In this document: one piece after another, positions 2,068 to 27,238 of the stretch | How positions within the stretch are numbered: the stretch's first letter is position 1 | Layout: the number at the start of each line of letters is the position of its first letter | Virus record (IMG/VR): IMGVR_UViG_3300042091_000690 | Span: 1-27,238 of that record | DNA: 27,238 nt | Origin: a virus | Reading direction: 5' to 3' (one strand) | Notes under the pieces: generated by a model | What the model saw: the letters and a program-made list of their open reading frames with translations, nothing else | The model's database searches: none | What the model was told of the DNA's origin: nothing | Position numbers and translations under genes: made by a program

Positions 2068-3960
2068 ATGAAACCTTTGACGAACGTGCTCCCCGATTCG
2101 GCGTACCAGGAGCTGCGCATACAGGGGGCGGAATTAACGAAATCCTGGAAGGCCGGGCTTGCACCGGCGGACATGGCGCGTCTCGACGGCGCGCGTATCC
2201 CGCTGGTGATCCCGCGCGGCAACTGGCGCGATTACCGCGTCCAGGAAGCCATGGAAGTCTTCCTCAACAAGTGCCGCGAGCGCGAAGCCATCGCGCGCGA
2301 GATGGTGAAGGCGATGGTGCTCGCGAAGCATCCGACCGAACCGTCGCTGTTCCAGAAAGCGGGCGTCAGCTCCGCGCTGGGATATAACTTCTACGACCTG
2401 CGGCCTCCGGTCATGATGATCTTCCCGGTCAACACCCCGATGCGGGCGTCAATCCCGCGCGTCGGGCCGGTGAATGCGGGCGTAGGCACGTTCGCGACCT
2501 GGAATGCGGTGACGAGTCCTGGGTACCCCTACGGGGGCGCTTCGGAAGGCCATCGCGTGCAGGCGCGCACGCCGAACCGGATTCCTTACGTCTCTCCGTA
2601 CCGCGAAATCGGGTCGGAAGGCGAAGTGACCCTCACCGCGCAGTTTGCGGGCGAAGGCTATGTGGACAATCTGGCCGACGAGCATTTGCGCGGCCTGTTT
2701 GGCCTCTGGCTTCAGGAAGAGGGCATGATCTGGGGCGGCAACTCCGGCTTCAGCAACAAGGGCAACGGCTTCCAGTTCAACGGGAGCAACGGCCTGACGG
2801 CTACGCCGGTCCCGAGCGGCGGCACTGTCACCACCCACACCGTGGGAGCCGCTGGCAACCTGGGAACCGCAGTGAACGCGGCCGATCTGCCGTACACCGC
2901 GGCCCTCACCAACTCGCAGTACGTTTCCGTGGCTGTCGTTCTTCTGACCGCCATGGGCAATCCAGCCAATGCGCAGTACGGCTACGGCCTGCAACCCACC
3001 ATCTCCACCGGCTTGACCCCGAGCTTCAGCCGGACCAATGCGGACGGCTCGAAGGACACGATCCCTGGCGGCATGAGCGCAATCTCGGCGATTGCCACGC
3101 CGGTGGAAGCCCTCAGCGCCGGTTCGCAGTTGACGGTCAAATTCAGCATCCCAGCCGCCAGCTTGCCGGTCAAGGGCTGCTTCGGCTACGCCTGGTTCGT
3201 GGACGTGGAAGCGACCAACACCGGCTCCCTCGCCAATGCCAAATTCGCCGGCATCACCGAGGTTCCGTACTGCTACGTAAGCGGCACGGCCACCGGTGTT
3301 CAGGTTGGAACCTACTCCGGGCTTTCGACCGACAATAGCTACAACCCGCTCGACTTCGACGGGATGTTCTCGCTCAACATCAACTACAACGCCAACTACG
3401 GAACCGTCACAAACTACGGTTGGACGGACCTCTACGGCGCTTCCCTCACGGCGCAGAAAAACAGCCGCGTGACCGAGATCGAGAACATCCTGCTCTCGGT
3501 CTTCGAAGCCTGGCAGTGCGGCATCGACGAAATCTGGTGTTCGCCGGACGCCGCAGAGAATCTGGATCAGGCGATCCGCTGGCAGGGGACCGACAACAGT
3601 GGGATGCAGATTTTCTTCACGCGCGATCAATTGAACAACTTGGTCGGCGGCTTCGTGGTGTCGGCCTACCAGTCGCGCTACGCAATCAACAACCCGACCG
3701 GCGCCAACGCGATTCCCATCAAGATCCACCCGATGGTTCCTCCGGGCACGATGTACTTCCACATCAAGACCAACCCGTATCCGCATTCGCGGGTTCCGTT
3801 CACCACGGGCATGATCTTGCAGCGGGATTACTACTCGATTGAGTGGCCGCAAGTCACTCGCGAGTGGACGTTCGGTACCTACACTCACGAGGCGCTGGCA
3901 CAGATGCTGCCCGGCATTCCGTGGGTGCTGACCGGGATCGGTCCCTTCGTCGGCGGCTAG
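2068..3960 (+). CDS. Major capsid protein, HK97-fold-like, with large central insertion
   Basis: A 630-residue product preceded by AAAGGAG. It builds the phage head shell. Residues ~100-235 and ~420-630 read like the two halves of an HK97-type capsid subunit: the second half has the usual run of a Ltaq helix, IENILLSVFEAW, a CSPDAAENL segment and a C-terminal strand pair before GPFVGG. Between them lies a Gly/Thr/Ser-rich, beta-type stretch (~235-420) without the helices of the core; it is probably a surface insertion domain. At 630 residues it is much longer than a typical HK97-fold subunit (about 300-400). There is no obvious N-terminal cleaved delta domain within this frame. The following decoration-like pair and the hairpin after the stop fit the capsid assignment. 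Confidence 0.85.
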   Translation: MKPLTNVLPDSAYQELRIQGAELTKSWKAGLAPADMARLDGARIPLVIPRGNWRDYRVQEAMEVFLNKCREREAIAREMVKAMVLAKHPTEPSLFQKAGVSSALGYNFYDLRPPVMMIFPVNTPMRASIPRVGPVNAGVGTFATWNAVTSPGYPYGGASEGHRVQARTPNRIPYVSPYREIGSEGEVTLTAQFAGEGYVDNLADEHLRGLFGLWLQEEGMIWGGNSGFSNKGNGFQFNGSNGLTATPVPSGGTVTTHTVGAAGNLGTAVNAADLPYTAALTNSQYVSVAVVLLTAMGNPANAQYGYGLQPTISTGLTPSFSRTNADGSKDTIPGGMSAISAIATPVEALSAGSQLTVKFSIPAASLPVKGCFGYAWFVDVEATNTGSLANAKFAGITEVPYCYVSGTATGVQVGTYSGLSTDNSYNPLDFDGMFSLNINYNANYGTVTNYGWTDLYGASLTAQKNSRVTEIENILLSVFEAWQCGIDEIWCSPDAAENLDQAIRWQGTDNSGMQIFFTRDQLNNLVGGFVVSAYQSRYAINNPTGANAIPIKIHPMVPPGTMYFHIKTNPYPHSRVPFTTGMILQRDYYSIEWPQVTREWTFGTYTHEALAQMLPGIPWVLTGIGPFVGG

Positions 3961-4056: not shown

Positions 4057-4635
4057 ATGGGCTACTTACAATTGAGTCAACCCGCGCTTGGCGTCGGTGA
4101 AAACATCGGCGCACGCATGGACGCCCTCGAAGCCTTGCAGCTTTCGGTCAAAGGGACCATCAGTCCGCAAGGCACGCACTTCTACGCCGGCGGATATGTG
4201 CCGGTATCCTTCACGGATGGGAACGATACCACGGATATCACGAACGACATTTGGGTGAACGAGGTCCGCATCCGAGGCAATACGCTCATCACCGGCGTCT
4301 CGTATCTCATCGGATCAGTCGGAACTACCGACACCGTGATCGCCATCCTGTACGATTCCAGTGGGAACGTGCTCGCTTACTCCGCTCTCGCCGGAACGAC
4401 CGTTGGAACCGCCGAAACCTTTCAGCGCCTGCCGTTCGTTACGGCCTATCAAGCCTCGCCCGGCTTGTACTATATCGGCATTTCCACCAACGGCACGCAC
4501 GCGCATCTTCAAACCCAAGTGGCCGGCAACCACAACGCCGGAGTCATCACCGGACAGACTTTCGGCACGCCTACGGCCATCACTCCGCCGAGCACCTTCA
4601 CGGCGAACAAAGGCCCGATTGCAATGTTGTACTAG
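4057..4635 (+). CDS. Putative capsid decoration protein, paralogue A
   Basis: A 192-residue product. The ATG at 4057 is chosen because AAGGAAG lies just upstream and because it aligns with the start of the next gene (MGYLQLSQP versus MSYLQLSQP). After a short N-terminal helix, the protein is beta-rich with phrases such as HFYAG, AILYD, SSGNVLAYS, FQRLPF, YQASPGLYYIGIS and a shared C-terminal GPIAM-Y. The 'LSPGxYYxxI' type phrase is frequent in carbohydrate-binding or lectin-like beta sandwiches on phage particles. Position directly after the capsid gene suggests a head decoration or head fibre. It is a tandem paralogue of the 4678 gene. Function is inferred; no enzyme motif is visible. Confidence 0.7.
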   Translation: MGYLQLSQPALGVGENIGARMDALEALQLSVKGTISPQGTHFYAGGYVPVSFTDGNDTTDITNDIWVNEVRIRGNTLITGVSYLIGSVGTTDTVIAILYDSSGNVLAYSALAGTTVGTAETFQRLPFVTAYQASPGLYYIGISTNGTHAHLQTQVAGNHNAGVITGQTFGTPTAITPPSTFTANKGPIAMLY

Positions 4636-4677: not shown

Positions 4678-5244
4678 ATGTCGTACCTTCAGCTCTCTCA
4701 ACCGACTCCCGAAAGCCTGCTCGACCGCGTGGCCGCTCTGGAAACCTTGGAGGTCACTGCGCGTGCGACCGGGATTGACGGGCAGCATTTCTACGCTGGC
4801 ACCTTCGTGCCGGCCTCCCTTTCAACCGGCGGGACGAATACCCAGGGCGTGGCCAACGCCATTTGGGTTTCCGAACTGCGCATCAGCGGCAATGTCCTGC
4901 TCACCGGAATTTCCGTGCTCTTGGGCGGGACCGGCGGAACCGATCACATCATGGCGATCCTGTACGACCAGTACGGCAACGTATTGGCGCACTCGGCCTC
5001 CACGACGGTCGTTGGCACGCTGCACACCTTCCAACGGCTCGCGTTCACAGCACAGTACCAGGCATCGCCGGGCCTGTACTACGTGGGCATCACCACGGAT
5101 GGGACCACGGCGTACATCCAGACCCAACCGGCCGGGGACCACGCCACTTCGGAGATCACCGGGCAGACGTTCGGGACCCCGACCGCGATCACGCCTCCGC
5201 TGACATTCACGGCGGCAACAGGCCCAGTTGCAATGACCTACTAA
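4678..5244 (+). CDS. Putative capsid decoration protein, paralogue B
   Basis: A 188-residue product preceded by AAAGGAG at 4659-4665. It aligns along its whole length with the preceding gene product, by eye well over half identical beyond residue ~40, with identical blocks YQASPGLYY and ITGQTFGTPTAITPP. Only the N-terminal helix (ESLLDRVAALETL) and the strand around residues 50-60 differ much. The two copies differ at many silent and non-silent sites, so the duplication is old. It probably forms a decoration layer or mixed trimers with paralogue A on the head; this is inferred from position and duplication. Confidence 0.7.
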   Translation: MSYLQLSQPTPESLLDRVAALETLEVTARATGIDGQHFYAGTFVPASLSTGGTNTQGVANAIWVSELRISGNVLLTGISVLLGGTGGTDHIMAILYDQYGNVLAHSASTTVVGTLHTFQRLAFTAQYQASPGLYYVGITTDGTTAYIQTQPAGDHATSEITGQTFGTPTAITPPLTFTAATGPVAMTY

Positions 5245-5355: not shown

Positions 5356-6651
5356 ATGAAACTCTGGCGAAGTGGCATCCTGCTTTTCGCGCTGGCGATC
5401 CTGGCGTCCGCGCAATCGACGGCGGTTTATCCTGGCGCTATTGCGACAAACACCAACCTGCTCGTGCTCAACGTCGGCCATACCACGCTGGCGAACTTCG
5501 TAGATAATTCGGCGACATCGCTGACGTTTACCGACGGCGGAATCTTCACCGCCCCGACAGCCGTGCTGATCGGAAATGAGGTGATTTACTGCTCGACCGC
5601 GACCGGCAATGGCCTTTCAGGATGTACGCGCGGTTGGAAGGGCACGACCGCGGCGCCGCATTCTGCGGCCACTTCGGTCACGTCCTGGTATAACGATACC
5701 AGCCAAGCTGTGGCCGAGATCATCGCGCTCGAAACGGCGCTAGGGATCAACCTTGCAAACGTAGAGACTACAGCCCAAGCCGGGGCTGCATTGACCCCTA
5801 CGGTGGTTGTTAGTTTGCCGGCCGCCGCCTCCGCGATAGTCGGGCGCCCTTATGAATGGACGGCTTCACTGGCGTCAAACTTCTGCCCGGATTCAGGAGC
5901 GGCAGGGGTTGCGCAAGGAACAGCAGTAGCTACCTGCGTTACGCTCGACGGAGCCACATGGCAACCGATGACGGTAAATCCTGCTGCAACTGCCGGATCG
6001 GAATCGCTTAGCGAGGGAAACTTCACGGCGCACGACAAATGGAGCACCTCCGGTGATTTTGCCTGGTCATCCGGTACGATGGTGTTCACAAAGAGCACCG
6101 GAAGCGGCCAAATCACGCAGACGACGGGCAATATGGCGGTAGCTCCCGTCGGGAACGTCGTGTACAAGTTCACCTATGATCTCACCAGCGCCAATCCGGG
6201 GAACTTGTCCGCTTTCATCACCACTGGAATTCCATTAAGCGCGCCAATTAGCCTGGCCCTCGGAACCGGGAACGTCGTTTACTTCGTAAGCACGGGATCT
6301 CCGGGGAATTTCGTCATTGGAGGGTCTGGCAGTACGTCGGGCGGCACGTTCACGCTAGATAATGTTTCTCTCAAGCAGGTGACGAATGGATTCGCAGGCA
6401 GCGTAACGACCGCCGGAACAAAAGTCAGCGCCGGAACCTGCCAAGCACAGACCGGAATTTCGATCAGCGGAGTGACGCCATCGACTGCGGTGAATTGGTC
6501 TGTCGCGTCGGCGTTAGCCGCAACCTGGCAGACCGGAATTGCAGTCGTACCCGTCGTGACGGCAGGCACGGTAACGCTGAACCTATGCAATGGAACAGCG
6601 GCCGATATCACCCCGGCGGCAACTGTTCTGAATGTTCGCGTAGTCCTGTAG
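5356..6651 (+). CDS. Exported fibre-like virion-locus protein with signal peptide
   Basis: A 431-residue product. The ATG at 5356 has GAGGG five bases upstream and opens a textbook Sec signal peptide: a Lys/Arg n-region, hydrophobic core GILLFALAILA and an ASA/Q cleavage site. An upstream in-frame start at 5293 would bury the signal. The mature part is Thr/Ser/Gly/Ala-rich and beta-type. An early block (residues ~35-115) has the NEVIYCS...GCTRGW pattern seen in tail-tip and fibre modules; the middle (~200-340) resembles a jelly-roll or carbohydrate-binding sandwich; the end is Ig-like. It sits between head decoration and connector genes, so a head-fibre role is possible. A signal peptide on such a protein is odd. 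Function not established. Confidence 0.7.
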   Translation: MKLWRSGILLFALAILASAQSTAVYPGAIATNTNLLVLNVGHTTLANFVDNSATSLTFTDGGIFTAPTAVLIGNEVIYCSTATGNGLSGCTRGWKGTTAAPHSAATSVTSWYNDTSQAVAEIIALETALGINLANVETTAQAGAALTPTVVVSLPAAASAIVGRPYEWTASLASNFCPDSGAAGVAQGTAVATCVTLDGATWQPMTVNPAATAGSESLSEGNFTAHDKWSTSGDFAWSSGTMVFTKSTGSGQITQTTGNMAVAPVGNVVYKFTYDLTSANPGNLSAFITTGIPLSAPISLALGTGNVVYFVSTGSPGNFVIGGSGSTSGGTFTLDNVSLKQVTNGFAGSVTTAGTKVSAGTCQAQTGISISGVTPSTAVNWSVASALAATWQTGIAVVPVVTAGTVTLNLCNGTAADITPAATVLNVRVVL

Positions 6652-8242: not shown

Positions 8243-8698
8243 ATGTTTAAGCTCGTCCACAACACCGAGCAGGTGGCCGCCAGGTTGCGCGGACGTGGCG
8301 CGGCCATGCGGGAATCGGTGCGCCAGTGCTTCATCCGCATCGCGCTTTGGCTCCAGCGGGACATTCAGACCAATGCTCTCGAAGGTCAAGCCTTAAAGCA
8401 TCGGTCCGGCAAGTTGATTGGAAGCATTCGGCAGTGGACAGAGTTTGGGGATCGGGAAGCCATCGCTATCGTCGAGGGTGGCGGCGGTGTGGCTCCGTAT
8501 GGCGAGATCCACGAGTTTGGCGGCACGTTCATGATCCCGGCGCACATGAGCACGAGCAGGCTGGGCAAGCCGTTTGAAGTGCGGGCGCATTCCGCAACCT
8601 TCCCCGAGCGGAGCTTCATGCGCTGGCGGCTGCGCGAAGGGGAGGGCATGTTCCTGGACTGGATCGAGCGGGCGGTGAGCGAGGGCATCCAAAAGTGA
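8243..8698 (+). CDS. Tail completion protein, HK97 gp10-like
   Basis: A 151-residue product. The pattern of an N-terminal helical region, then 'HRSGKLIGSIR', a PYGEIHEFGG turn, and FPERSFMRWRL near the C-terminus is characteristic of the HK97 gp10 / minor tail completion family, which closes the head-tail joint. Length is as expected for the family. It follows the connector and in most siphophages is followed directly by the tail terminator; here a glycosyltransferase and a methyltransferase intervene. The stop codon overlaps the GTG start of the glycosyltransferase. Confidence 0.85.
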   Translation: MFKLVHNTEQVAARLRGRGAAMRESVRQCFIRIALWLQRDIQTNALEGQALKHRSGKLIGSIRQWTEFGDREAIAIVEGGGGVAPYGEIHEFGGTFMIPAHMSTSRLGKPFEVRAHSATFPERSFMRWRLREGEGMFLDWIERAVSEGIQK

Positions 8699-9783
8699 AC
8701 GTCTTTCTGGTGACCAAACAGGCGACCGGCTGTTGCAAATGGCGTGGTTCGATCCCGGCGAAGTACTTGGCGAAGCGCGGACACGATGTCCGGTTCTTTA
8801 CGCCAGGCCAGCGCATCGATCAGACGCCGGACGTGGTGGTCTTTTTCCGGCTGGACGCCAAGGACTGCGAGGATGCGGTGCTTTGGTGCAAGAGCGAGGG
8901 AATTGCCATCGTCTACGATGTGGACGACGCGCTCGATCTCGTGCCGGCGGGGAACCCGAGCTACACGGCGGCGCGGGACAGAATGCCGCGGTATCGGTTC
9001 CTGCTGGAGCAAGCCGACGTAGTAACCACGACGACGCCGCAGATTGCAGAACACCTTCGAGCGTTGGCCGGCCGCGATCAAGTCCTGATCTTGCCGAACA
9101 GCGTGGACCCCGACGAATGGCCCATTGCGCCCAGATTGCCGGAGCGCAAGGAGCTGCGCGTCGGCTGGTCCGGCGGGGCGAGCCATTTCACCGATCTCGG
9201 AAACGTGTTGGCGGCGATTCGGGATGCGCAGCGGCGCCGCGGCTTTTCGTTCGCGATTCAGGGATTCTGCGAGGAGGCGAGCCTGGAGGAGATGTACGCC
9301 AAGCACGTCAGCCTATACGGCGATGAGTTCCGGCGCTCCGGCTTTGCTCACGAGATGATGTGGTTTATTCGGACGCTGAAGGAATCCGGGCTCGAGTACG
9401 AGTTCTATCCGACAGTTCCAACGGACCGACACGCGGCGCGCGTCCGGTCGCTCGATCTCGATATCGGAATCACGCCGCTGATGGCCAATCCGTTCAATCG
9501 GTGCAAGTCTGCCGTGAAATTCTACGAACTGGCGATGGTCGGGGCCGCCGTGCTGGCGTCGGACGTGGAGCCCTACAGCGATGAAGTTCCGGCGCTCGCC
9601 AGAAACAATCGACTGGCTTGGACGAATGCGCTCCTTGGCTTAATCGACGTGGACCGCACCCGGCTGGTGCGTGAGCAGCGCGATTGGGTTTTGCAGAACC
9701 GCAATATGGAGCGGAATGTCCAGTCCTGGGAGTTCGCCTATCGGCGGGCGATGGAAAGAGCACAGAAAAGGATCGCTGCTTGA
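8695..9783 (+). CDS. GT-B fold glycosyltransferase (group 1 / GT4-like)
   Basis: A 362-residue product from a GTG start that overlaps the previous stop (GTGA). It would transfer a sugar from a nucleotide-sugar donor to an acceptor not identifiable here. The layout is that of a two-domain GT-B enzyme: an N-terminal domain with 'YDVDDALDL' (residues ~74-82), LPNSVD near 133-138, the hinge and start of the donor domain at VGWSGGASH (156-164), and the C-terminal KFYELAMVGAAVLASD stretch (~275-290), where the Glu (278) is expected to bind the donor. No signal peptide or membrane helix is present, so it acts in the cytoplasm. Being co-translated with virion genes, a capsid or tail protein is a plausible acceptor. 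That is inference. Confidence 0.85.
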   Translation: MNVFLVTKQATGCCKWRGSIPAKYLAKRGHDVRFFTPGQRIDQTPDVVVFFRLDAKDCEDAVLWCKSEGIAIVYDVDDALDLVPAGNPSYTAARDRMPRYRFLLEQADVVTTTTPQIAEHLRALAGRDQVLILPNSVDPDEWPIAPRLPERKELRVGWSGGASHFTDLGNVLAAIRDAQRRRGFSFAIQGFCEEASLEEMYAKHVSLYGDEFRRSGFAHEMMWFIRTLKESGLEYEFYPTVPTDRHAARVRSLDLDIGITPLMANPFNRCKSAVKFYELAMVGAAVLASDVEPYSDEVPALARNNRLAWTNALLGLIDVDRTRLVREQRDWVLQNRNMERNVQSWEFAYRRAMERAQKRIAA

Positions 9784-17156: not shown

Positions 17157-17599
17157 TCGAATCGGAACAACGCGCGGCGGTGTGCAAGATCGCAATGACG
17201 TGGGAGCGGACTGCGTTTCACCAGAACGTCGCGATCAAGCAGGTTGGCGTCGATTGCGCTCATCTCGTTTGCGCGACATACTGTGAGGCTGGACTGCTCG
17301 ATCCGATGGTGTTGGCCACGTTACCGCACCTGGCGCCAGATTGGTGTCGTCATACCTCGGAAGAAGGATTTCTGCGGATTATCCAGCAGCATCTCCGCGA
17401 GGTCTTCGTGCCCCTGCCCGGCGACATGGCGGTGTTCAAGTTGGAGAACATCTTCGGGCATTGCGGTTTGGTGATTGCGTGGCCGACGATCTTGCATGTT
17501 TGCCGGCGCGGGATGCGGGTGAGTTTGGCCAGTGTGGAGCAGGAGCCGCTGTTACGCCGGCGGCCAGTTCGGTTCTTTACGCCGTTTCATCACAAATGA
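17153..17599 (+). CDS. NlpC/P60-family cell-wall peptidase of the tail tip (GTA gp14-like)
   Basis: A 148-residue product that would cut host peptidoglycan cross-links during DNA entry. The nucleophile is probably Cys35 in GVDCAHLVC and the general base His103 in FGHCGLVIAWP; both are in the spacing expected for phage NlpC/P60 peptidases. Other family marks are FHQNVAIKQVGVDC, a PPDW-like APDWCRH segment and the PGDMAVFK turn. There is no signal peptide, as usual for a structural tail-tip enzyme. Starts and stops overlap by 4 bases with the genes on both sides, so it is co-translated with them. Confidence 0.88.
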   Translation: MIESEQRAAVCKIAMTWERTAFHQNVAIKQVGVDCAHLVCATYCEAGLLDPMVLATLPHLAPDWCRHTSEEGFLRIIQQHLREVFVPLPGDMAVFKLENIFGHCGLVIAWPTILHVCRRGMRVSLASVEQEPLLRRRPVRFFTPFHHK

Positions 17600-20500
17600 G
17601 CTTTCTTTCCAAATCCGGCAACACGCAGGCGAACACGCAGACCAAGCTCTTTGGCCTGCATGTTTCGACATCCCTCTACGGCCGCGTGATCCCGATTGTT
17701 TACGGGCGGCGCCGGATAAGCCACAACGTCATCTGGTCTGGCGCCTGGGAATCGAATCCGGTCAACTCGGGCGGCAAGTTGGGCGGAAAGGCGGGCGGGG
17801 CCGGGAAGGCGGGGAGTAATCAACAGTACGATTACACCTGCGCGGTACTGCTCGCGCTGTGCCAAGGGCCAATCGGCGGCATCGTCAATGTCTGGAACGA
17901 CAAGGATCAGTATCAACTCTTTCGCGTCAGCCATACCTTCCTTGTCGGTACGGGAAGCGGCTCCGGCGGTCTGACGTACACCACGCCAGAGTCTGGCTTC
18001 AATCCTTCTGGCAATTCGTGGTATTTGAACAACGGGTGTTCGCGCGCCGACACTATCACGGTGACGGTGAACGACTACGGTTCGCCAGGCCCAACGACCA
18101 TCACGGAGGACGTTCAGACGCCGATGGAGTTGGTCGTCTCCTCTACTCCACCCATCACCATCATCGAAAACGTGACGCCGACACCAGACGGCGTTACGAC
18201 CACCTTCTATCTGTCGCAGCCGGTGACGGAGATTCGCGGCATTCAGTTTTTTGATTCGAATGGGAACGAGCAGGCAGCACAGGAGACATTCGGGACCGGC
18301 GGCGGGAATGCCTGGACGTACACCGTTGGATCGAACGCATTGACGCAGAATCCTGTGTATCCGGCCACCAGCCCAATGGCCGGGACTGCGACGATCACCT
18401 ACACACCAGGCGGTTTCAGCATACCGCCCCAAGGCGGACAGTACACGCTGGAGGTGGACAGCGCCGGGGCGCATTATACTTTCGCCGCGGGCGATACCGG
18501 CAAGACCATGACCATCGACTACGAGGTCATGACGAGCAACCTAAGCACTACGGGCGATCCGTTGGTGCATTTGAACTTGGTTTTGTTACCCGGATTTCAG
18601 GGCCAACAGCCGTGGAACTGGATGGTGTCGAACTTTCCAGGGCCTCAGGCGATTGGATACAGCGGCACGGCTTACTTGGGGAGCGCACTATTCGATCTCG
18701 GGTCCGCGGGGATGCTTCCGAACCTCGGATATGAAGTCATCGGGTTCTGCCCGGTGGGCGGTTCGATCATCGACTGCAATGCAGCGGCGGTGATTCAGGA
18801 TTTGCTCTCCAGCACGCTCTACGGGCCGCTTGGTTGGTCTGCGGCGGACCTGGCCTGTGGAACATGGGTAGCGGGCGCAACCTACGCTGTAGGGCAGGAG
18901 GTCGTCGATTCGTTCTATCACCTGCAACTATGCGTAACGGGGGGCACGGCGCAGACGCCTGGGCCGCCGGCCTGGAACGATTTGGGCGGAAATACCACCG
19001 ACAACACGGTGGAGTGGCTCGATCTGGGTGTGGCTACGTATGGGCTCGGGCCGGCCAGTGAACTATACACGTACTGTGCGGCCAATGGACTGTTCATCTC
19101 GCCGCTGCTTGATTCGGCGCAAACGGCCGCTTCGTTCATCAGGGATATCCTCGATGTCCAGAACGCGAATTGCTTCTGGTCCGAAGGCATCCTGAAGTTT
19201 CGGTCCTACGGCGATACGACAACCGTCGGGAATGGCGCTATCTTCACGCCGAATACCCAGCCGGTTTACGACTTGGACGACGACGACTTCCTGTGCAGGC
19301 CCGGTGAGGCTCCGGTCAAGGTAACCAGGCCATCGGTCCGCGATGCCTACAATCAAGTCTCAGTCGAATGGTGCAACCGCGGCAACAGCTACAACTTCGA
19401 GCCGGTCTACGAGGAAGACGCCTGCCACGTTGGGCTGTACGGTGCGCGGCCAGCCTCGCCGGTGAGCCAACACATGCTCTGCGAAGCCAACGTGGCGGCG
19501 CTCGTCGCGCGCACCATGGTGCAGCGCAAGGTCTACATTGAAGGGGCCGACACCTACCAGTTCAAGCTCGGGCCGCAGTATGCGCTCCTGGAGCCGATGG
19601 ATCTGGTGACCCTCACCGACCCGTATCAGAGCCTCAATCAGCATCCGGTTCGAATCGTTTCGATTGAGGAAGACAACGCGCTGGCATTCACCGTGACGGC
19701 GGAAGAGTTTCCGTGGGGCGTTTCGGCGGCGACGAGTCATCCGAAGCAGATCTCCGGGTCAATGGGGCCGGGCTTCTATGCGGTACCATCGTCAGTGAAC
19801 GCGCCGATCTTTTTGGAGGCAATCGAAGGTATGTCGAGCGTTGCGTTGTACACCCTGCTCATGGCATTGAGTGGGGGCACGAATTGGGGCGGTTGCACGA
19901 TCCACGAGAGTACGGACGGGGTTTCGTACAACGTCGTCGGCCGGCAGACCGGGCCGTCGGTCATGGGCGTGCTCACGGCGACTTTGCCAACCGCGGCGGA
20001 CCCGGACGTGACGGACACGCTGAGCGTGAACCTGACCGAAAGCCTTGGAGTCCTGGATTCCGTCACGAAGGCCCAGGCCGATCAGTTCCAATCGCTCGTT
20101 CTGATCGATCAAGAGTTGATAAGTTACGAGACCGCCACGCTTGTCAGTTCGAACGCCTATAATCTGACGTACCTGCGCCGCGGCTGCCTGGGCACGCCGA
20201 TCCAATCGCACGCCATCGGCGCTCCGTTCTGCTTGGTGAATCTGGCCATGTTCGAGTGGGAATACCAGAACTCGGACGTTGGCCAGACGCGGTACTTCAA
20301 GTTCACGTCATTTAACGCAGCGGGCCAGATGGAGCAAAACGTGTCGCTCGTTCCCGCCTATCAGCACTACGTGAACGGCCCGCGGCTTCCGCGCCCCTGG
20401 CTTCCGGGCACTCAGCCCAGCCTCCAGAGTTCGTTCGCGACGAACAGGGACAATTCGATCACGGCCTCGGTGGACGTCAACGGATATCCCACGATCAATT

Positions 20501-21615
20501 CGTTGTCGCCGTCCGTGCTCCCACCGACGTTCTCTGTTTCCGTGGCGACGACTGGAGGAATCATACCGGGAGGGCAAACCCTCTACCTGGCGATGACATC
20601 GTTTGACGCGGCTGGACTCTCCAGCGACCTGTCCCCGATAGTCCCCGTTTCCATCCCGGTCGGGACGAACACTAACACAATCACAATGACGATCACATGG
20701 CCGACCGGGGCTGTAAGGGGAGATATTTACTATGGAAGCGCGCCCGCTAATGTGGCGTTCTTAAGTCAGCCTCTGTCCAGTACAACGTCATTTTCAATGC
20801 CAGCACCTCCACCGGTCGGATATTATCCCGGTCCACCGGACTACACCGTGTCCGCTTACGCTTTTCAGGCCGCCCAGATCGATCTCGCCGGAGATTATGT
20901 GGGAACCGTTTCGGCCATCGGGACCGCTGGAGGATTTCAGACGATCACCGTCATAGGCATGGATGGCTCGATACCACAGTGGGCGAACGGGCTGTGGGGG
21001 CCATCGAGCGGGAATTACTACGATTTGGACCTGCTTGCACGGGAGCGTTCCGCGGTTCAAAACTATACGGGAGCAGTCGCCACGGGCAACACCGGAAACG
21101 TCATCACCACGAGCATATCTGGTAGTGTCTTCGCCGTCGGGGACGTGATCGCGATCCGTTGCTTGCCTTCCACTCACACCGCGCTCGCGGTGGGAGACTC
21201 AAATCTGGCGATGAGCACGAATCAATACGCCGGGAAAATGCTCTTCGTATTCCGAAATACCGGGGCTGGTCAGTCCGTCCTCATCGCGAGCAACACCGCG
21301 ACCGTGCTGACGTTTTCCACGGCGCTCGCAACCGCCATGGACGCCACGAGCCGTTTCGTGGTGACCGAGCCGAACTGGATGCCGCAGGTCATAGCTCCGG
21401 CTGCGCAATACACCGGATCTCCCGCCCTTTCCGGCCAGATCATCGCCGGCGCCCTGCAAGTATCGAACGCCGTCGGTTTGGCGTTTTTGGTTCAGGTGTT
21501 CACCGTCAACTCGTTCGGGGAATCACTGGCCCAGTACAGCCAGACGCTGCAAATATACCTGGTTGGATCTGCCACCAGGCAGCGGTCTCCGAATTTACAT
21601 GCCATGTTGAACTGA
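17596..21615 (+). CDS. Large tail tip / baseplate hub protein (GTA gp15 / gpJ-like)
   Basis: A 1339-residue product; the ATG at 17596 overlaps the peptidase stop, whereas the frame upstream of it is only an open shadow. The start (LFGLHVSTSLYGRVIPIVYGRRR, split around residue 18-40) is the hallmark of the large tip proteins. Around residues 420-480 there is a carbohydrate-binding-like module (WVAGATYAVGQEV ... TVEWLDLG). Near 810-862 comes the LIDQELISYETATL ... LTYLRRGCLGT segment typical of the gp15 family. The last ~350 residues are fibronectin-like and beta modules for host contact. It caps the tail and probably leads receptor recognition, together with the next four genes. Confidence 0.88.
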   Translation: MSFLSKSGNTQANTQTKLFGLHVSTSLYGRVIPIVYGRRRISHNVIWSGAWESNPVNSGGKLGGKAGGAGKAGSNQQYDYTCAVLLALCQGPIGGIVNVWNDKDQYQLFRVSHTFLVGTGSGSGGLTYTTPESGFNPSGNSWYLNNGCSRADTITVTVNDYGSPGPTTITEDVQTPMELVVSSTPPITIIENVTPTPDGVTTTFYLSQPVTEIRGIQFFDSNGNEQAAQETFGTGGGNAWTYTVGSNALTQNPVYPATSPMAGTATITYTPGGFSIPPQGGQYTLEVDSAGAHYTFAAGDTGKTMTIDYEVMTSNLSTTGDPLVHLNLVLLPGFQGQQPWNWMVSNFPGPQAIGYSGTAYLGSALFDLGSAGMLPNLGYEVIGFCPVGGSIIDCNAAAVIQDLLSSTLYGPLGWSAADLACGTWVAGATYAVGQEVVDSFYHLQLCVTGGTAQTPGPPAWNDLGGNTTDNTVEWLDLGVATYGLGPASELYTYCAANGLFISPLLDSAQTAASFIRDILDVQNANCFWSEGILKFRSYGDTTTVGNGAIFTPNTQPVYDLDDDDFLCRPGEAPVKVTRPSVRDAYNQVSVEWCNRGNSYNFEPVYEEDACHVGLYGARPASPVSQHMLCEANVAALVARTMVQRKVYIEGADTYQFKLGPQYALLEPMDLVTLTDPYQSLNQHPVRIVSIEEDNALAFTVTAEEFPWGVSAATSHPKQISGSMGPGFYAVPSSVNAPIFLEAIEGMSSVALYTLLMALSGGTNWGGCTIHESTDGVSYNVVGRQTGPSVMGVLTATLPTAADPDVTDTLSVNLTESLGVLDSVTKAQADQFQSLVLIDQELISYETATLVSSNAYNLTYLRRGCLGTPIQSHAIGAPFCLVNLAMFEWEYQNSDVGQTRYFKFTSFNAAGQMEQNVSLVPAYQHYVNGPRLPRPWLPGTQPSLQSSFATNRDNSITASVDVNGYPTINSLSPSVLPPTFSVSVATTGGIIPGGQTLYLAMTSFDAAGLSSDLSPIVPVSIPVGTNTNTITMTITWPTGAVRGDIYYGSAPANVAFLSQPLSSTTSFSMPAPPPVGYYPGPPDYTVSAYAFQAAQIDLAGDYVGTVSAIGTAGGFQTITVIGMDGSIPQWANGLWGPSSGNYYDLDLLARERSAVQNYTGAVATGNTGNVITTSISGSVFAVGDVIAIRCLPSTHTALAVGDSNLAMSTNQYAGKMLFVFRNTGAGQSVLIASNTATVLTFSTALATAMDATSRFVVTEPNWMPQVIAPAAQYTGSPALSGQIIAGALQVSNAVGLAFLVQVFTVNSFGESLAQYSQTLQIYLVGSATRQRSPNLHAMLN

Positions 21616-21619
21616 TTCC

Positions 21620-22966
21620 ATGAGCACTTACGACAGAACCGGCAACCTATACGTACAGGGGCGTTACCTCTACGTCACGTCGGACTCTGGGCCAAACAAT
21701 GACGGGGCATTCTCGATCATCGACATCTCTTCACCCGTCTCTCCGGTTCTTATCTCGCAAATAAACTCCGACGTGCGCTTGAAATTCGCTGAAGGGGTCA
21801 TTGTCGTTGGAAACTACGCCTTCGTAGCAGGTTACAATGCGACATCCCTGGTCGTCATCGATGTAAGCGACCCGTACGCCCCGTCTATCGTCGCCGTTCT
21901 CACTGACGCAAATAACCTGATTTTGCCGGTGGAGATGGCGATCTCCGGGCAATACCTTTTTATCGCGTGCTCCCATACAATTTCTGGCAAATCGAACCTC
22001 ACGGTCGTGAGCATTGCCAACCCACTTGCCCCGGTCGTTGTTGGAACGCTTGTCAATTCCGGTATCGCGGGTGCCGTGTGGCCAGAAATCCAGGGAAAGT
22101 ATTTGTTCCTTGCGGCTCGCGGTTCCGTCGCGACCTTCTCCGCCATCGATATTTCCAACCCTACGGCCCCCACTCTCGTGAGCACTTTCGGTACTACGTG
22201 GCCCGGTGGCGGCAACTCGATCACTGGGGTAGCAGTGCGCGGCAAGTACGCTTACCTGGGAGTCGGGAACGCGAACGCCGTCGTGGTCGTGGACATCTCG
22301 AACCCGGCCAGCATGACCTCGCCGGGGAACTACACGAGCGCTACCTACTTGCCGGACGTGAGCAATGTCCATATAGCGGGCACGTTGCTTTATGTGACAA
22401 CGTACGGTAACTCGCTAGTGGTTCTTGACGTTACGGTCCCTACCACTCCAACATTCGTCAGTGCTATGACGTTTGTGGCGACGGTGCAAACTGATCATCT
22501 GGAGATCGACGGGAACTACGCCTATATCGCCGACACCAGTTATCCGAATCTCGGCGGAGTCATCGCCTTAGAGATTGGTGGAGCGGTACAACCGACCGCG
22601 AGTTTCGGAAAGCTCTACGCCGACGAGATCCACGTCGGCAAGGATGTCAGGGTCGCGCGTAACCTATTGGTGGGAGGCGGGTTCAGCGCGAACACGCAGC
22701 AGCTCTGTTGCATCGTCCCGGCCGGATCGTACTTCGAATTTGTCGCTACCGGAGCCGCTACGTTTCGGATTGGGTGGCAGTGGTACGGGACTTCTTTTGG
22801 AACCGGGGCAACCGTCGGAACACTTGTCTCCGGCACAGCCTACGGGCCTACCGCTACCAACACTTTTCTTGCCCTTTGCTTCAACGTGCCGCTCGGCTCC
22901 AGCATCACGTTCTACATGGACACGTCCAATCCTCCCACCACGGAGGTAGGATTCATTTCCTTTTGA
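21620..22966 (+). CDS. LVIVD beta-propeller tail protein, putative receptor-binding protein
   Basis: A 448-residue product. Residues ~5-330 contain seven repeats of the LVIVD type, each with a G-x-Y-x-Y/F-V/I strand, a hydrophobic V-V-D-I/V strand and a D-x-x-x-P-x-x-P turn (for example SLVVIDVSDPYAPSIV, AVVVVDISNPASM, SLVVLDVTVPTTPTFV). Seven repeats predict a seven-bladed propeller. Residues ~338-370 (KLYADEIHVGKDVRVARNLL) look like a fibre shaft or trimerising segment, followed by a ~75-residue C-terminal beta domain. No signal peptide is present, unlike its three downstream neighbours. Position just after the tip hub gene suggests a receptor-binding protein. The ligand is unknown. Confidence 0.75.
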   Translation: MSTYDRTGNLYVQGRYLYVTSDSGPNNDGAFSIIDISSPVSPVLISQINSDVRLKFAEGVIVVGNYAFVAGYNATSLVVIDVSDPYAPSIVAVLTDANNLILPVEMAISGQYLFIACSHTISGKSNLTVVSIANPLAPVVVGTLVNSGIAGAVWPEIQGKYLFLAARGSVATFSAIDISNPTAPTLVSTFGTTWPGGGNSITGVAVRGKYAYLGVGNANAVVVVDISNPASMTSPGNYTSATYLPDVSNVHIAGTLLYVTTYGNSLVVLDVTVPTTPTFVSAMTFVATVQTDHLEIDGNYAYIADTSYPNLGGVIALEIGGAVQPTASFGKLYADEIHVGKDVRVARNLLVGGGFSANTQQLCCIVPAGSYFEFVATGAATFRIGWQWYGTSFGTGATVGTLVSGTAYGPTATNTFLALCFNVPLGSSITFYMDTSNPPTTEVGFISF

Positions 22967-22984
22967 GGTGATCTGAGGTGATCT
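22965..22984 (+). promoter_or_regulatory. Doubled Shine-Dalgarno sequence
   Basis: GAGGTGATCT occurs twice in direct tandem. GAGGTGATC is fully complementary to the 3' end of bacterial 16S rRNA (GATCACCTC). The second copy is placed to serve ATG 22990; the first could serve GTG 22978, which lies inside the second. The first copy begins within the stop codon of the propeller gene. Confidence 0.7.
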
Positions 22985-22989
22985 CGACA

Positions 22990-24570
22990 ATGAGCACGAC
23001 AATCAAAGCGCTGGCGCTGATGGCTCTGGGAGTTATTGCTGGCGCTCAGACTACGACCATATCTTCGGTAGTGAATGGGCCTGACGGGAATCCGGCGGCA
23101 GGCACAGCTACGATCACGTTGAGCGGTCCCTGTCAATCTGGTTCGACTTATGTTATTCCGCGGCAGATCCAAGTTCCTTTCACGGCCGGCGTGTTCTCTG
23201 TGAATCTATACCCTAACACCACTTGCATTCCAAGCACGACAAGCTATGCAGTTCAGTGGCAGCTCACCACGCCAGGCAGGATTCCAAATCAAGTGTGGAT
23301 TGTTCCGGCAAGCACTACGCCAATTCAGATCGATGCAGTCCTCGTTCCCTCGCCTCCTTCACCGTCGTATGCGATCCCGTACACTCAAATAACGGGACTG
23401 TCCTCAGGCTATGCGCCTGTGGGAAGCGTTAGTGGAACGGTTCAATCTGAGCTGGCGCTCACGGACAATTCTCCATCGATCTTTTCCCTGTCTCTCGGGG
23501 ATGCGATCCTACACAATGCGCAGCAGGAGTATGGCGTCACCGGCGCGAACACCTATGTAGGCTATCACCAGATGTCCACGCCGAACGTGTTTGGCCCCTA
23601 CAATACGTCGGTTGGGTTCGAGTCCATGAACTCGATTACGACGGGCTTCGATAATACGTCGGTGGGCGTGCAGACGATGCCAAATCTGGTTGACGGATTT
23701 GCAAATTTAGCTCTTGGGTTCCAGGCCGGCATAGCATTGACTCACGGTTCGCGCAACGTCTTTGTGGGGCCGAATGCCGGATTCCAGACCAACGGGAGCA
23801 CATCAAATCTCCCCGAGGGAACCGTGGCGGTGGGCGTAGAAGCCTGCTACTCGGGATGCAACGGGTCCGAAGATACGGCGGTGGGCGTTGACGCATTGGA
23901 GCACTCGGCCAACGCGGCCGACGTTACGGCGGTTGGCGCTTATGCCATGCAGCACGCTACCGACGCGGCCGCCAATGCAACGGCCCTGGGGACGTTCTCC
24001 TTAGACAATGCTAATGGGCCTGGAGATACTGGCCTTGGGTTTCAGTCTTTGCAGTCCAACGGGACTGGCAGCTACAACACCGCCGCCGGATACAACGCTT
24101 TCCAGGCCAATACGACAGGTTCCGGCAATGCCGGGCTTGGGGCGAACGTCGCAGTGAATAACACGACTGGATCGGACAATGCTGCCCTGGGCCAGCTTGC
24201 CCTCGGGAACAACGTTGGCGGATCGAATAACGTTGCGGTGGGGTACGGAGCCGGATACATCCAAAACAACGTGAACAACTCCGTCTTTCTCGGCTACCAG
24301 GCGGACGAGAGCGCGAATAATCTGAGCAACGTGGTGGCTATCGGCTATCAGGCGCAAGCGACACAAAGCAACGAGGTAGTGATCGGGAATGCTTCGATTT
24401 CCCAGACGGTGCTGCATGGGGCTTTGGTCGATAGCGCACTGGTCGCAACTCCTGCGTCTTCTACTTCGGCGTGTTCGACTGGGCAGTTCTCGTTCGATGA
24501 TGGCTATTTTTACGCCTGTGTGGCGACAGACACTTGGACCCGGGTGGCGATGACGCATTCGGGTTGGTAA
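22990..24570 (+). CDS. Exported fibre/adhesin with YadA-head-like repeats
   Basis: A 526-residue product from ATG 22990; an in-frame GTG at 22978 would add four residues. Residues 1-20 form a Sec signal peptide with core ALALMALGVIA and an AGA/Q cleavage site. Residues ~21-115 are an Ig-like beta domain (TATITLSG, FTAGVFSVNLYPN, PIQIDAVLV). Residues ~205-467 are tandem repeats of the G-x-N-x-A-x-G-x-x-A type found in the heads of trimeric autotransporters and in some tail fibres. The end (CSTGQFSFDDGYFYACVATDTW split by a turn) is a C-terminal module I recognise from phage tail proteins. There is no YadA membrane anchor, so it is more a fibre than a true autotransporter. Trimerisation is inferred. 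Confidence 0.75.
   Translation: MSTTIKALALMALGVIAGAQTTTISSVVNGPDGNPAAGTATITLSGPCQSGSTYVIPRQIQVPFTAGVFSVNLYPNTTCIPSTTSYAVQWQLTTPGRIPNQVWIVPASTTPIQIDAVLVPSPPSPSYAIPYTQITGLSSGYAPVGSVSGTVQSELALTDNSPSIFSLSLGDAILHNAQQEYGVTGANTYVGYHQMSTPNVFGPYNTSVGFESMNSITTGFDNTSVGVQTMPNLVDGFANLALGFQAGIALTHGSRNVFVGPNAGFQTNGSTSNLPEGTVAVGVEACYSGCNGSEDTAVGVDALEHSANAADVTAVGAYAMQHATDAAANATALGTFSLDNANGPGDTGLGFQSLQSNGTGSYNTAAGYNAFQANTTGSGNAGLGANVAVNNTTGSDNAALGQLALGNNVGGSNNVAVGYGAGYIQNNVNNSVFLGYQADESANNLSNVVAIGYQAQATQSNEVVIGNASISQTVLHGALVDSALVATPASSTSACSTGQFSFDDGYFYACVATDTWTRVAMTHSGW
23602..24390 (+). repeat. YadA-head-like coding repeats
   Basis: Degenerate tandem repeats of about 14-24 codons with the core N-x-(A/S)-(L/V)-G-x-x-(A/S), e.g. 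NTSVGFESM, NLALGFQAG, NVFVGPNAG, NAALGQLAL, NNVAVGYGAG, NVVAIGYQA. At least a dozen cores can be counted by eye. In YadA such repeats stack as a left-handed parallel beta-roll in a trimer. Confidence 0.75.
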
Positions 24571-24583
24571 ATTGGAGGTTCTG

Positions 24584-25090
24584 ATGAAACGATTTCTTCT
24601 CTTCGCGGTTCTCGCGCTCTTGGCGGCACCGCTTTTCGCTCAACCGCAGCCGCCGCGCGTTTACACGGCATACTGTTCCGGCAGTTTGATAAGCGCAGGC
24701 ACCACGATGACGCTGCAATTGCCAGCGAACTCAAGCGTCACCGTTACCCCTGTTGCTTGGTACGCAGCCACCTCGGTGGCCGACACCGCTACGGCGGTGC
24801 GAACCGGGACGGCCGCTTCGGGGACGGTAACGGCCAGCAGCCCAGGCTCCGCTGTAACTCCGCCGGCGACGGCCCAAGTGTACTGCGGTTCTAATGGCGG
24901 CGCGAGCGGAGTGACAATTGGGGCTCCATTCCCAACGAGCGCTTCCGGCTTGACGGTTCCGATGACTACAGCCCAAGGAACGGCCGGCACGGTATTGTCG
25001 AGGTTCAACACAGCGGCTGACAATTTCAATGTGTCGCTGGCCTCCATGACCGGGTCCTATACGCTGGTCTTCCAGTGGCAGGAGAACTAA
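24584..25090 (+). CDS. Small exported beta-rich protein of the fibre cluster
   Basis: A 168-residue product. ATG 24584 is chosen because GGAGG lies five bases upstream and because it opens directly on a signal peptide: KR, then FLLFAVLALLAAPLFA, cleavage LFA/Q. An in-frame TTG at 24572 would lie within the ribosome site. The mature protein is small, Thr/Ser/Ala-rich and beta-type, with two cysteines and the phrase SYTLVFQWQEN at the C-terminus. It sits between two exported fibre-like genes and may be a fibre-associated or periplasmic accessory protein. No family recognised. Confidence 0.65.
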   Translation: MKRFLLFAVLALLAAPLFAQPQPPRVYTAYCSGSLISAGTTMTLQLPANSSVTVTPVAWYAATSVADTATAVRTGTAASGTVTASSPGSAVTPPATAQVYCGSNGGASGVTIGAPFPTSASGLTVPMTTAQGTAGTVLSRFNTAADNFNVSLASMTGSYTLVFQWQEN

Positions 25091-25091
25091 C

Positions 25092-27238
25092 ATGCGACGC
25101 ATGGCACTTCTTTTGATTCTCCCGCTGGCCCTGTTCGCGCAACTTCCAGCGCCTGAGGGCAATGGCGGAGGCAGTAGCCCCTGCACCCTCTCCGGCTCAC
25201 AGACGGCCGGCTACGTCCTCACGGCCAGCGCTACGGCTGGCCAATGTTCCTGGCAGGCTTCTGGAGCCGCGTCCGTGACGATCAATTCCATCGCGGCTGC
25301 AAACTATGTGGCCGATGGCGGATCGACCAACGCGATCACAGGTACGACCACGACGGCTTTTACGAGCTACGCGCCGGGGCAAGCCGTTGTCGTGAAAATG
25401 GCTCACTCCAACACCGGACCCGTCACGATCAACATCAACTCCATCGGGACGGTGAACGTCACCAAGTTTGGCACAACGGTGCTGGCGACTGGAAATTTGA
25501 TCGCGGAGCAAGAATATGCCTTCGTATCAGATGGTTCAGAGTTTCAGGTACTTAATCCGACGTTGGTTCCTGCTGATCTTCCATCGCAGGCCTGCCAATC
25601 CCTTAGCGGGTCCGTAACGCCCAACCTCGAGCTTGGGAGGTGCTTCATCGTCACCGGATCTTCCGGGGGTACGACAACGATCAGCGCTCCCACAAATCCG
25701 CCGGATGGCGGTCCCTATATGTTCGCGTTCTGCAATGGGGCGACTCCTACTACATGGTCATTGCCCGGTACGTTTCAGCAGATCGGGACGCCTATCCTTG
25801 CATCAAAGTGCGTCTACAACGGAGGCGTGGCTTACGACGGGAGCAATTATCAGGGCATAGGCAGCAACGAGACCCCGACCATCTTGCGCGGCATCGAGCG
25901 GGCGGCTCCGGGCACGACTGTATCGGGCGCGTTTGCTTGCTGGTGGGACAGCACAAACCACATCTTGACCTGCAACGAGAATGCCTCTGGCAGCAATTCC
26001 AACACGGCATTCCCGCAATCAGCGCAGACACACAAATTCCTGACCGACTTCCTCGGATCCGGGACCTTTGATGCGGCGCAGCCTACCCCTACGGACGTGA
26101 GCCTTGGAAACGTGACAAACGATGCGCAGACAAAGGCTGCGATCATGCCGAATACGGCCCCAAGCGCCGGGCAGGTGGCCGTAGGCAATGCGGGGGGTAC
26201 TGCTTATGCGCCGGTTACGATCAGCGGATCATGCACCATGGCTTCTACCGGCGCAATGACCTGCACGGTGCTGAATCTGAATGTCGCCAACGCCGCGAGC
26301 ACAGGCACGACTACAAACAAACTGGTAAAATTGACGGGCGCTCCGTCCACTGCCGTCATCGCGGCCACTACCGACACGGGTGGGATTGTGGGAATCTGCA
26401 CGGCGAATTGCGGAGTTGCGGGTACATACGCTACTGCTACTATTCAGACTGCCGGACCCGCATCTTGCGTCTTTGCCGGAGCTACAACGGCGGGCGATTA
26501 CGTGCAGATCAGTTCTGGCACCGGAGGAGACTGCGCCGACGCGGGGGCTACCTATCCTACTAGCGGGCAGGTCCTTGGGCGCGTGCTGAGCACAAATGGC
26601 GGCGGCGGAACCTACGCGCTTGATCTCTTCCCGTCCGAGATGCAGGCGTCGTCCGGCAGCGGCGGCGTTGCCTCCGTGGCGCTTCAAAACAACGGCTCGG
26701 CCTATGGCAGCATGACGAGCGGGCAGAACGGGACGCTGAACTTCACGAATTGCACCGTGACCGGCACGGCTCCGTCGTTCACTATAGCCTGCCCGTCTTC
26801 CTCCGGCATGACGTGGCCCGGAGGCCCTGGCATTACGGTCTGTACGGGAAGTCCATGCAGCGCGTGGGGGTCTTCTCTCACCGCGCCATCGGGCACGATT
26901 GTCGGGACTACGGACACGCAGACCCTCACTAATAAGCGGAATACCCCGCGCGTCGTGACTTGCGCCAGCGGGTCTCCAGCCGGAAACTGCGTACAGACCG
27001 GATCAAGCACTGCCTACACAATCACGCCAGATTCAGACAACGCCGATGTGGTTTACTACAGCGATACCGATAGCTCGGGCGGACTAACTATTGCGGCGGA
27101 TAGTGGAGCGCCAACCAACGGACAGAAGATGATAATGAATCTCAACTGCCCGAATTTCGCCTTGAACTTGACCTTTGCCACGGGATCTACCAATGATTAT
27201 GAAGCCAGCAGCAACCTGGCTTTCCCGACAACCTGCAC
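25092..27238 (+). CDS. Exported tail-fibre-like protein, 3' truncated by window end
   Basis: The frame from ATG 25092 is open to the last base, giving at least 715 residues. GGAG lies seven bases before the start. It opens with a signal peptide (RR, core ALLLILPLALFA, cleavage LFA/Q). The mature part is Ser/Thr/Gly/Asn-rich with many cysteines. Two phrases mark it as a tail fibre: LGNVTNDAQTKAA (about 26105-26140) and TTDTQTLTNKR (about 26907-26939), both common in long tail fibres ahead of a C-terminal tip. A possible chaperone or receptor-binding end lies outside the window. Confidence 0.8.
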   Translation, partial: MRRMALLLILPLALFAQLPAPEGNGGGSSPCTLSGSQTAGYVLTASATAGQCSWQASGAASVTINSIAAANYVADGGSTNAITGTTTTAFTSYAPGQAVVVKMAHSNTGPVTININSIGTVNVTKFGTTVLATGNLIAEQEYAFVSDGSEFQVLNPTLVPADLPSQACQSLSGSVTPNLELGRCFIVTGSSGGTTTISAPTNPPDGGPYMFAFCNGATPTTWSLPGTFQQIGTPILASKCVYNGGVAYDGSNYQGIGSNETPTILRGIERAAPGTTVSGAFACWWDSTNHILTCNENASGSNSNTAFPQSAQTHKFLTDFLGSGTFDAAQPTPTDVSLGNVTNDAQTKAAIMPNTAPSAGQVAVGNAGGTAYAPVTISGSCTMASTGAMTCTVLNLNVANAASTGTTTNKLVKLTGAPSTAVIAATTDTGGIVGICTANCGVAGTYATATIQTAGPASCVFAGATTAGDYVQISSGTGGDCADAGATYPTSGQVLGRVLSTNGGGGTYALDLFPSEMQASSGSGGVASVALQNNGSAYGSMTSGQNGTLNFTNCTVTGTAPSFTIACPSSSGMTWPGGPGITVCTGSPCSAWGSSLTAPSGTIVGTTDTQTLTNKRNTPRVVTCASGSPAGNCVQTGSSTAYTITPDSDNADVVYYSDTDSSGGLTIAADSGAPTNGQKMIMNLNCPNFALNLTFATGSTNDYEASSNLAFPTTC

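Follow-up and report, generated by a model that had tools for sequence, protein, structure and literature searches.

Tailed phages are generally considered to put their virions together in the cytoplasm, a compartment in which disulfide bonds normally do not form. An exported protein encoded in a phage tail region is known in lambda: Lom, a small outer-membrane protein. The gene studied here (the target) likewise lies in a tail region and is predicted to be exported, but Pfam and NCBIfam find no Lom-type domain in it. Trimeric autotransporters of the YadA type have a signal peptide as the target does, and the VG motif of their head repeats, which have a period of 14 residues, resembles the repeat motif of the target; they differ from it in that the target has no anchor barrel, almost no helix, no Pfam match to the YadA head, a repeat period of 17 residues and the C-terminus of a phage fibre.

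Similar in fold to the N-terminal domain of the target (N-domain) are the neck fibre gp5 and the tail fibre of cyanophage A-1(L) (PDB 8keg, 8kec), virion fibre or attachment parts in which the shared fold is N-terminal in the chain. The tail tips of Bxb1 and Ur-lambda, the neck of XM1 and the collar of DEV also resemble the N-domain by fold; sequence identity to all these parts is 12-25%. Common phage fibres in IMG/VR share with the target a YxCxATNTWKR C-terminal module, and sometimes the head repeats too; they differ in that few are signalled and few have the module's partner cysteine (counts below). Among cultured phages, Tunturi_1 to Tunturi_5 are described as plaque-forming phages of Acidobacteriota in the available part of PMC11924767; two of them resemble the window in gene arrangement. 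As stated in the available part of PMC6199706, phage proteins diversified by DGRs lack the transmembrane regions and signal peptides of surface-displayed bacterial ones, which was taken to support a phage origin. In a literature survey covering titles and the beginnings of abstracts, with few subscription journals and preprints, we found neither signal-bearing tail fibres nor a precedent of docking from outside the cytoplasm.

The stretch of DNA analysed here, called the window as a whole, is a viral contig 27,238 bases long. Its target gene looks like that of an ordinary tail fibre with an added export signal; phages of soil Acidobacteria have several genes of this kind.

The target gene and its neighbours

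The head and tail genes of the window form a block on one strand, with a capsid-like gene, head-tail adaptor, neck, tape measure, DUF2460, Gp84/BR0599 and an Rcc01698-type hub recognized by Pfam and PHROG (Table 1); the gene at 2068-3957 is called 'capsid-like' from its place in the gene order, and the PHROG family that it matches bears no functional name. The target (22990-24570, plus strand; 526 amino acids, ATG at 22990) is located in the tail module, 3′ of the hub, as is usual for tail-fibre genes, and Shine-Dalgarno-like boxes stand close before the starts of the three genes 3′ of the hub.

Table 1. Positions of the target, its parts and neighbouring genes in the window (a slash marks the predicted cleavage site)
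Feature	Position	Strand	Basis
Fourth signal-bearing gene, head/connector block, MKLWRSGILLFALAILASA/QSTAV, 6 Cys	5356..6651	+	sequence; relative in contig G001
Tail hub (Phage-tail_3 + Rcc01698_C), no signal peptide	17590..21615	+	Pfam E 1.3e-27 and 5e-16
LVIVD-repeat gene, no signal peptide, between hub and target	21620..22966	+	Pfam LVIVD E 1.7e-35
Shine-Dalgarno-like GAGGTG, 9 bases 5′ of the target ATG	22975..22980	+	sequence
Target signal peptide, MSTTIKALALMALGVIAGA, residues 1-19, predicted cleavage before Q20	22990..23046	+	sequence rule; background rate counted
N-terminal beta-sandwich, predicted virion-docking domain, residues 20 to about 122	23047..23355	+	AlphaFold2, VIA-align, relatives
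Low-confidence linker	23356..23538	+	pLDDT mostly <50 at residues 108-163
Head-like repeats, predicted beta-solenoid, residues about 184-471	23539..24402	+	motifs, model, PHROG matches
Fibre C-terminal module, residues 484-526, Cys pair mature 476/491	24439..24567	+	PHROG, IMG/VR; pLDDT about 90
Target stop codon	24568..24570	+	sequence
Second signal-bearing gene, MKRFLLFAVLALLAAPLFA/QPQPP, 2 Cys	24584..25090	+	sequence
Third signal-bearing gene, fibre-like, truncated by contig end, MRRMALLLILPLALFA/QLPAP	25092..27236	+	sequence

An earlier note on this DNA, made from the sequence, had described the target as a signal peptide, an Ig-like domain, YadA-head-like repeats and a tail-fibre C-terminal module, with no membrane anchor. 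Most of this description held. The predicted cleavage context, MSTTIKALALMALGVIAGA/QTTT, is of Sec type and follows an ATG preceded by a GAGGTG box. The Ig-like domain appears in the AlphaFold2 model as a beta-sandwich; no anchor was matched in Pfam or NCBIfam; and the C-terminal module is found in phrog_17312, phrog_21017 and phrog_37350 and in many IMG/VR ORFs. As to the repeats, the resemblance to YadA heads stood at the level of the motif and not beyond it (see below). The model of the whole target has a mean pLDDT of 65, with residues 250-470 and 484-522 as its confident parts.

Several searches for relatives were negative. The hub alignment gave no match among genome contigs, and the target is absent from the hub relatives G001 and G002; a scan of viral contigs with the whole target found no relative; neither the target N-terminus nor the N-domain of a prophage relative matched the phage collection. 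Hub matches were found in 8 of 392 Acidobacteriota genomes. Judging by these and by the N-domain relatives described below, with Acidobacteriota as the one phylum scanned, the host of the window was probably an acidobacterium. A record named Verrucomicrobia shared its sample with Acidobacteriota genomes, so the comparison stays within Acidobacteriota.

Signal peptides in the window and in control sets

Signal peptides were called by a home-made rule set rather than by SignalP, with thresholds varying from 38 to 44 between counts; its false-positive background was 408 of 20000 random internal 50-mers. Under one fixed rule, 4 of the 18 window ORFs bear a signal, compared with 17 of 802 ORFs in control viral loci (Fisher p 8e-4). 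The earlier note had treated the target as a single oddity, a view at odds with the finding that at least four genes of the window bear a signal. Fibres of the target's type are rarely signalled: a signal is present in 2 of 93 distinct complete IMG/VR fibre ORFs with the C-terminal motif of the target, and a smaller count at a lower threshold, covering part of the same loci, gave one of 61 (L021). Two other viral contigs each have a fibre ORF that combines a signal with the C-terminal module (L097:10219-11475 and L125:5281-6405).

The fourth signal-bearing gene is situated between the capsid-like gene and the head-tail adaptor. Contig G001, with a hub 55% identical to that of the window, has a relative of this gene (54% identity overall) with its own signal and also six cysteines, as well as another signal-bearing gene behind the hub. 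An IMG/VR contig identical to the window across the fourth gene (L128) reaches further upstream. The third gene found no relative among viral contigs; a signal-bearing prophage gene located directly after a capsid-like gene (L309:9449-10558) matches it with E 6e-8.

Fold of the N-terminal domain

Modelled alone (AlphaFold2, residues 20-137, 29 sequences), the N-domain reached a pLDDT of 85.7, and about 92 over its first 103 residues. The six best VIA-align rows for this model were all phage virion parts (Z 8.4-11.7): the neck fibre (Z 11.7) and tail fibre (Z 11.1) of A-1(L), the tail tips of Bxb1 (Z 10.0) and Ur-lambda (Z 9.5), the neck of XM1 (Z 9.4) and the collar of DEV (Z 8.4); the first non-phage row had Z 8.0, so the sixth row ties with it. 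These alignments begin at residue 1 or 2 of the phage chains; once its signal was cut off, the target would thus begin with a domain of the docking type. Foldseek gave weak matches to the N-domain (best E 2.3e-3). At the sequence level, its profile matched no phage chain in the PDB (one chance match, E 0.11), and the target sequence had no PDB match.

Relatives of the N-terminal domain in Acidobacteriota

The N-domain profile matched 36 of 392 Acidobacteriota genomes, one copy in each. Wider regions were taken from 26 of these 36 genomes and, with two viral contigs, made a set of 28 regions. A terminase relative is located nearby in 27 of the 28, indicating that these copies are (pro)phage genes; most regions also contain portal, HipA-like and capsid-like relatives (terminase and portal were named by PHROGs). 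A signal was called, with no score threshold, in 29 of 32 N-domain copies, and the remaining three have an N-terminus that is hydrophobic by eye. By a stricter criterion, the N-domain protein itself is signalled in 20 of the 28 regions, other genes only in two and none in six.

The mature N-domain proteins are 452 to 3,026 residues long. A comparison of 19 related proteins showed conservation over roughly the first 900 residues (mean pair identity about 0.5-0.7) and less of it further on (0.27-0.44 beyond residue 1050); such a conserved N-terminal part followed by a variable C-terminus is usual in fibres. In a pair of prophages (L294, L297) the gene beside the N-domain gene ends in the fibre module of the target; its N-terminus, missed by the rule, is signal-like by eye. 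A prophage block of one genome (L358:13885-14931) has a signal-bearing M28 peptidase beside the terminase (Pfam E 3.6e-22); export in such clusters thus goes beyond fibres.

Cysteine parity

The six cysteines of the mature target are at positions 29, 60, 267, 271, 476 and 491; the first pair is in the N-terminal beta-sandwich and the second in the repeat region. The target thus has both a predicted signal peptide and paired cysteines, the two marks by which it was judged as a Sec-exported, disulfide-bonded protein. Cysteines 29 and 60 are present in the target alone in the N-domain alignment, as if they had been gained together. The partner cysteine of the C-terminal module is found in the target and two prophage relatives, as compared with 3 of 115 IMG/VR modules; one of the three belongs to the signal-bearing ORF of L097.

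The mature cysteine count is even in all 27 complete N-domain proteins, often with close pairs, while the 28 proteins taken together have 12 different totals; since these copies share ancestry, the counts are given as a pattern, with no formal probability attached. Other signal-bearing phage proteins have even counts in 16 of 18 cases and odd counts in two. For unsignalled fibres with the C-terminal module of the target the count is even in 33 of 91. In the same prophage regions, even counts were observed in 10/24 TerL, 11/23 HipA-like and 7/11 portal proteins and in 12/17 and 13/17 of the proteins labelled UPST and X4136; the capsid-like protein is almost devoid of cysteine. The 13/20 obtained for the protein labelled GIANT is not comparable with the 27/27 mature counts, as its alignment start includes residues before the cleavage site. 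We take the paired and even cysteines as a sign of selection for predicted disulfides, which would fit periplasmic folding.

Repeats and C-terminal module

Thirteen [AVFG][VLIA]Gxx[AS] motifs occur in the target at residues 241-464, with spacing mostly of 17 residues. Pfam gave no YadA head match at E <= 1. Among the Foldseek matches listed, beta-helical phage tailspikes give the best alignments to the model of the repeats (Z up to 16.7), and YadA is absent from these matches. With the likeness confined to the motif and tailspikes aligning best, membership in the YadA family is not shown. No coiled-coil stalk was found, a single 9-residue helix being present in the whole model, and no match to the C-terminal YadA anchor barrel was found in Pfam or NCBIfam, the C-terminus being the fibre module. 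For the whole target model, Foldseek returned nothing from the PDB at E <= 0.001; its matches among viral models were repeat-containing proteins, both from phages and from large viruses (E down to 9e-11), as well as short close matches of about 40 residues.

The repeats and the C-terminal module occur together in three viral contigs (L124, L063, L009). Target matches were found in 48 of 396 genomes, partly through chromosomal secreted head-repeat proteins. Such secreted proteins with head-like repeats are encoded on Acidobacteriota chromosomes (L256, L261, L253, L258 and others), and their C-terminus is usually chaperone-like.

Cultured phages

Tunturi_1 and Tunturi_2, podoviruses with clear plaques and 88% nucleotide identity to each other according to the available part of PMC11924767, each have five signal-bearing genes among six consecutive genes behind a tail gene. 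Among these genes are some annotated as tail fibre, tail spike, pectin lyase or virion structural protein. Gp18 of Tunturi_1, with 44 residues, also scores as a signal; it resembles a membrane segment. The likeness to the window is in the cluster of signal-bearing genes after a tail gene and in cysteine counts, even in most. Fibre genes in the first 40-50 kb of Tunturi_3, Tunturi_4 and Tunturi_5 had no signal, so the trait is present in some lineages. The term 'signal peptide' does not occur in the available part of the paper describing these phages (PMC11924767).

Proposed assembly route and alternative readings

The balance of evidence tips, by a modest margin of belief, towards the target being a virion fibre that is exported, folded and oxidized in the periplasm, and docked when the cell lyses. 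The Sec signal would move the protein across the inner membrane and be cut before Q20; the protein would then fold in the periplasm into a beta-rich fibre and, given its paired cysteines, form disulfides. Cleavage would put the beta-sandwich at the very N-terminus, the place of virion-docking domains in solved phage fibres. At lysis the fibre would meet virions assembled in the cytoplasm and dock to them by the N-terminal domain, with the C-terminal part presumably binding or degrading surface structures of the next host. Other genes of the window and several Acidobacteriota (pro)phages appear to share this export route.

The steps of this route differ in strength. Export of the target is well supported as a prediction, and so is its fibre-like nature; docking to virions from outside we infer from how the N-domain is predicted to fold, from conservation at the N-terminus and from the isolates that form plaques. 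The earlier note had left a choice between a phage fibre and a secreted adhesin, and both words found support: 'secreted' in the conserved predicted signal peptides and the even numbers of cysteines, 'phage fibre' in the gene's place after the hub and its relatives in (pro)phages, as well as in the C-terminal module and the N-domain fold.

The main rival to the fibre reading, one that we consider unlikely but serious, is that the target is a phage-borne adhesin or enzyme which is secreted, never becomes part of the virion and works on the surface of infected cells or lysogens (attachment, receptor masking, matrix degradation), with lambda Lom as a parallel for an exported protein from a tail region. 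Conserved signals and even cysteine counts agree with it as well, a secreted protein needs no membrane anchor, clusters of this kind can hold an exported peptidase (the M28 gene above), and with most N-domain copies residing in bacterial genomes lysogenic conversion is conceivable. However, the N-domain has a virion-attachment fold and is the conserved part while the C-termini vary, and the clear-plaque phages Tunturi_1 and Tunturi_2 carry clusters of signal-bearing genes themselves.

It is improbable that the hydrophobic N-terminus, instead of directing export, is a membrane or self-association segment of a virion fibre made in the cytoplasm. Ordinary tail assembly is cytoplasmic, and hardly any other fibres of this type bear a signal; but a charged n-region, a hydrophobic core and a small-x-small cleavage motif are kept in relatives despite differing residues, and the even, clustered mature cysteines are a feature of the signalled set and not of the unsignalled fibres. 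A shade more improbable is the acquisition by the phage of a secreted head-repeat protein of the host, for although Acidobacteriota encode such proteins, which are among the target matches, most of those inspected have a chaperone-like C-terminus, absent from the target, the fetched relatives with signal and N-domain lie in (pro)phage regions, the N-domain has a phage-attachment fold, and repeats and module already occur together in viral contigs; the host-adhesin origin considered in the earlier note thus found no backing, while repeats could have been exchanged between the target and host genes.

Returning to the exported fibre, the observations suggest that in some phages the fibres first fold outside the cytoplasm and are joined to the particle afterwards. 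A wider statement, that several lineages of Acidobacteriota phages make tail and head fibres in the periplasm, cleaved, oxidized and fitted at lysis, has in our opinion slightly less than an even chance of being true. If the proposed route is true, a portion of the virion arises in a separate compartment and is added when the cell lyses, which would amount to a second assembly compartment for tailed phages; fibres stabilized by disulfides would be possible, and free fibres would be left in the periplasm of infected cells. Tunturi_1, being cultured, makes the idea of periplasmic fibres directly testable. Signal-bearing phage genes like the target would also fail the rule, given in the available part of PMC6199706, that absence of a signal supports a phage origin.

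Additional observations

In the window, a glycosyltransferase gene is located within the head-tail connector block (8695-9783; phrog_7162, E 2.6e-33). Two similar small genes (4057-4635 and 4678-5244, MGYLQLSQP and MSYLQLSQP) stand in tandem behind the capsid-like gene, with no family match above the cut-off.

Among the regions with N-domain relatives, a prophage-like block (L298, L295, L343-L353) occurs once per genome, with a capsid-like protein mostly 83-95% identical across Acidobacteriota genomes; its fibre-like protein, about 50% identical, is far less conserved. Either strong conservation of a prophage or domestication of the element could explain this. In one of these blocks and its relatives (L298:13049-14086), a gene for a HipA-like kinase lies between terminase and portal (Pfam HipA_2, E 9e-9).
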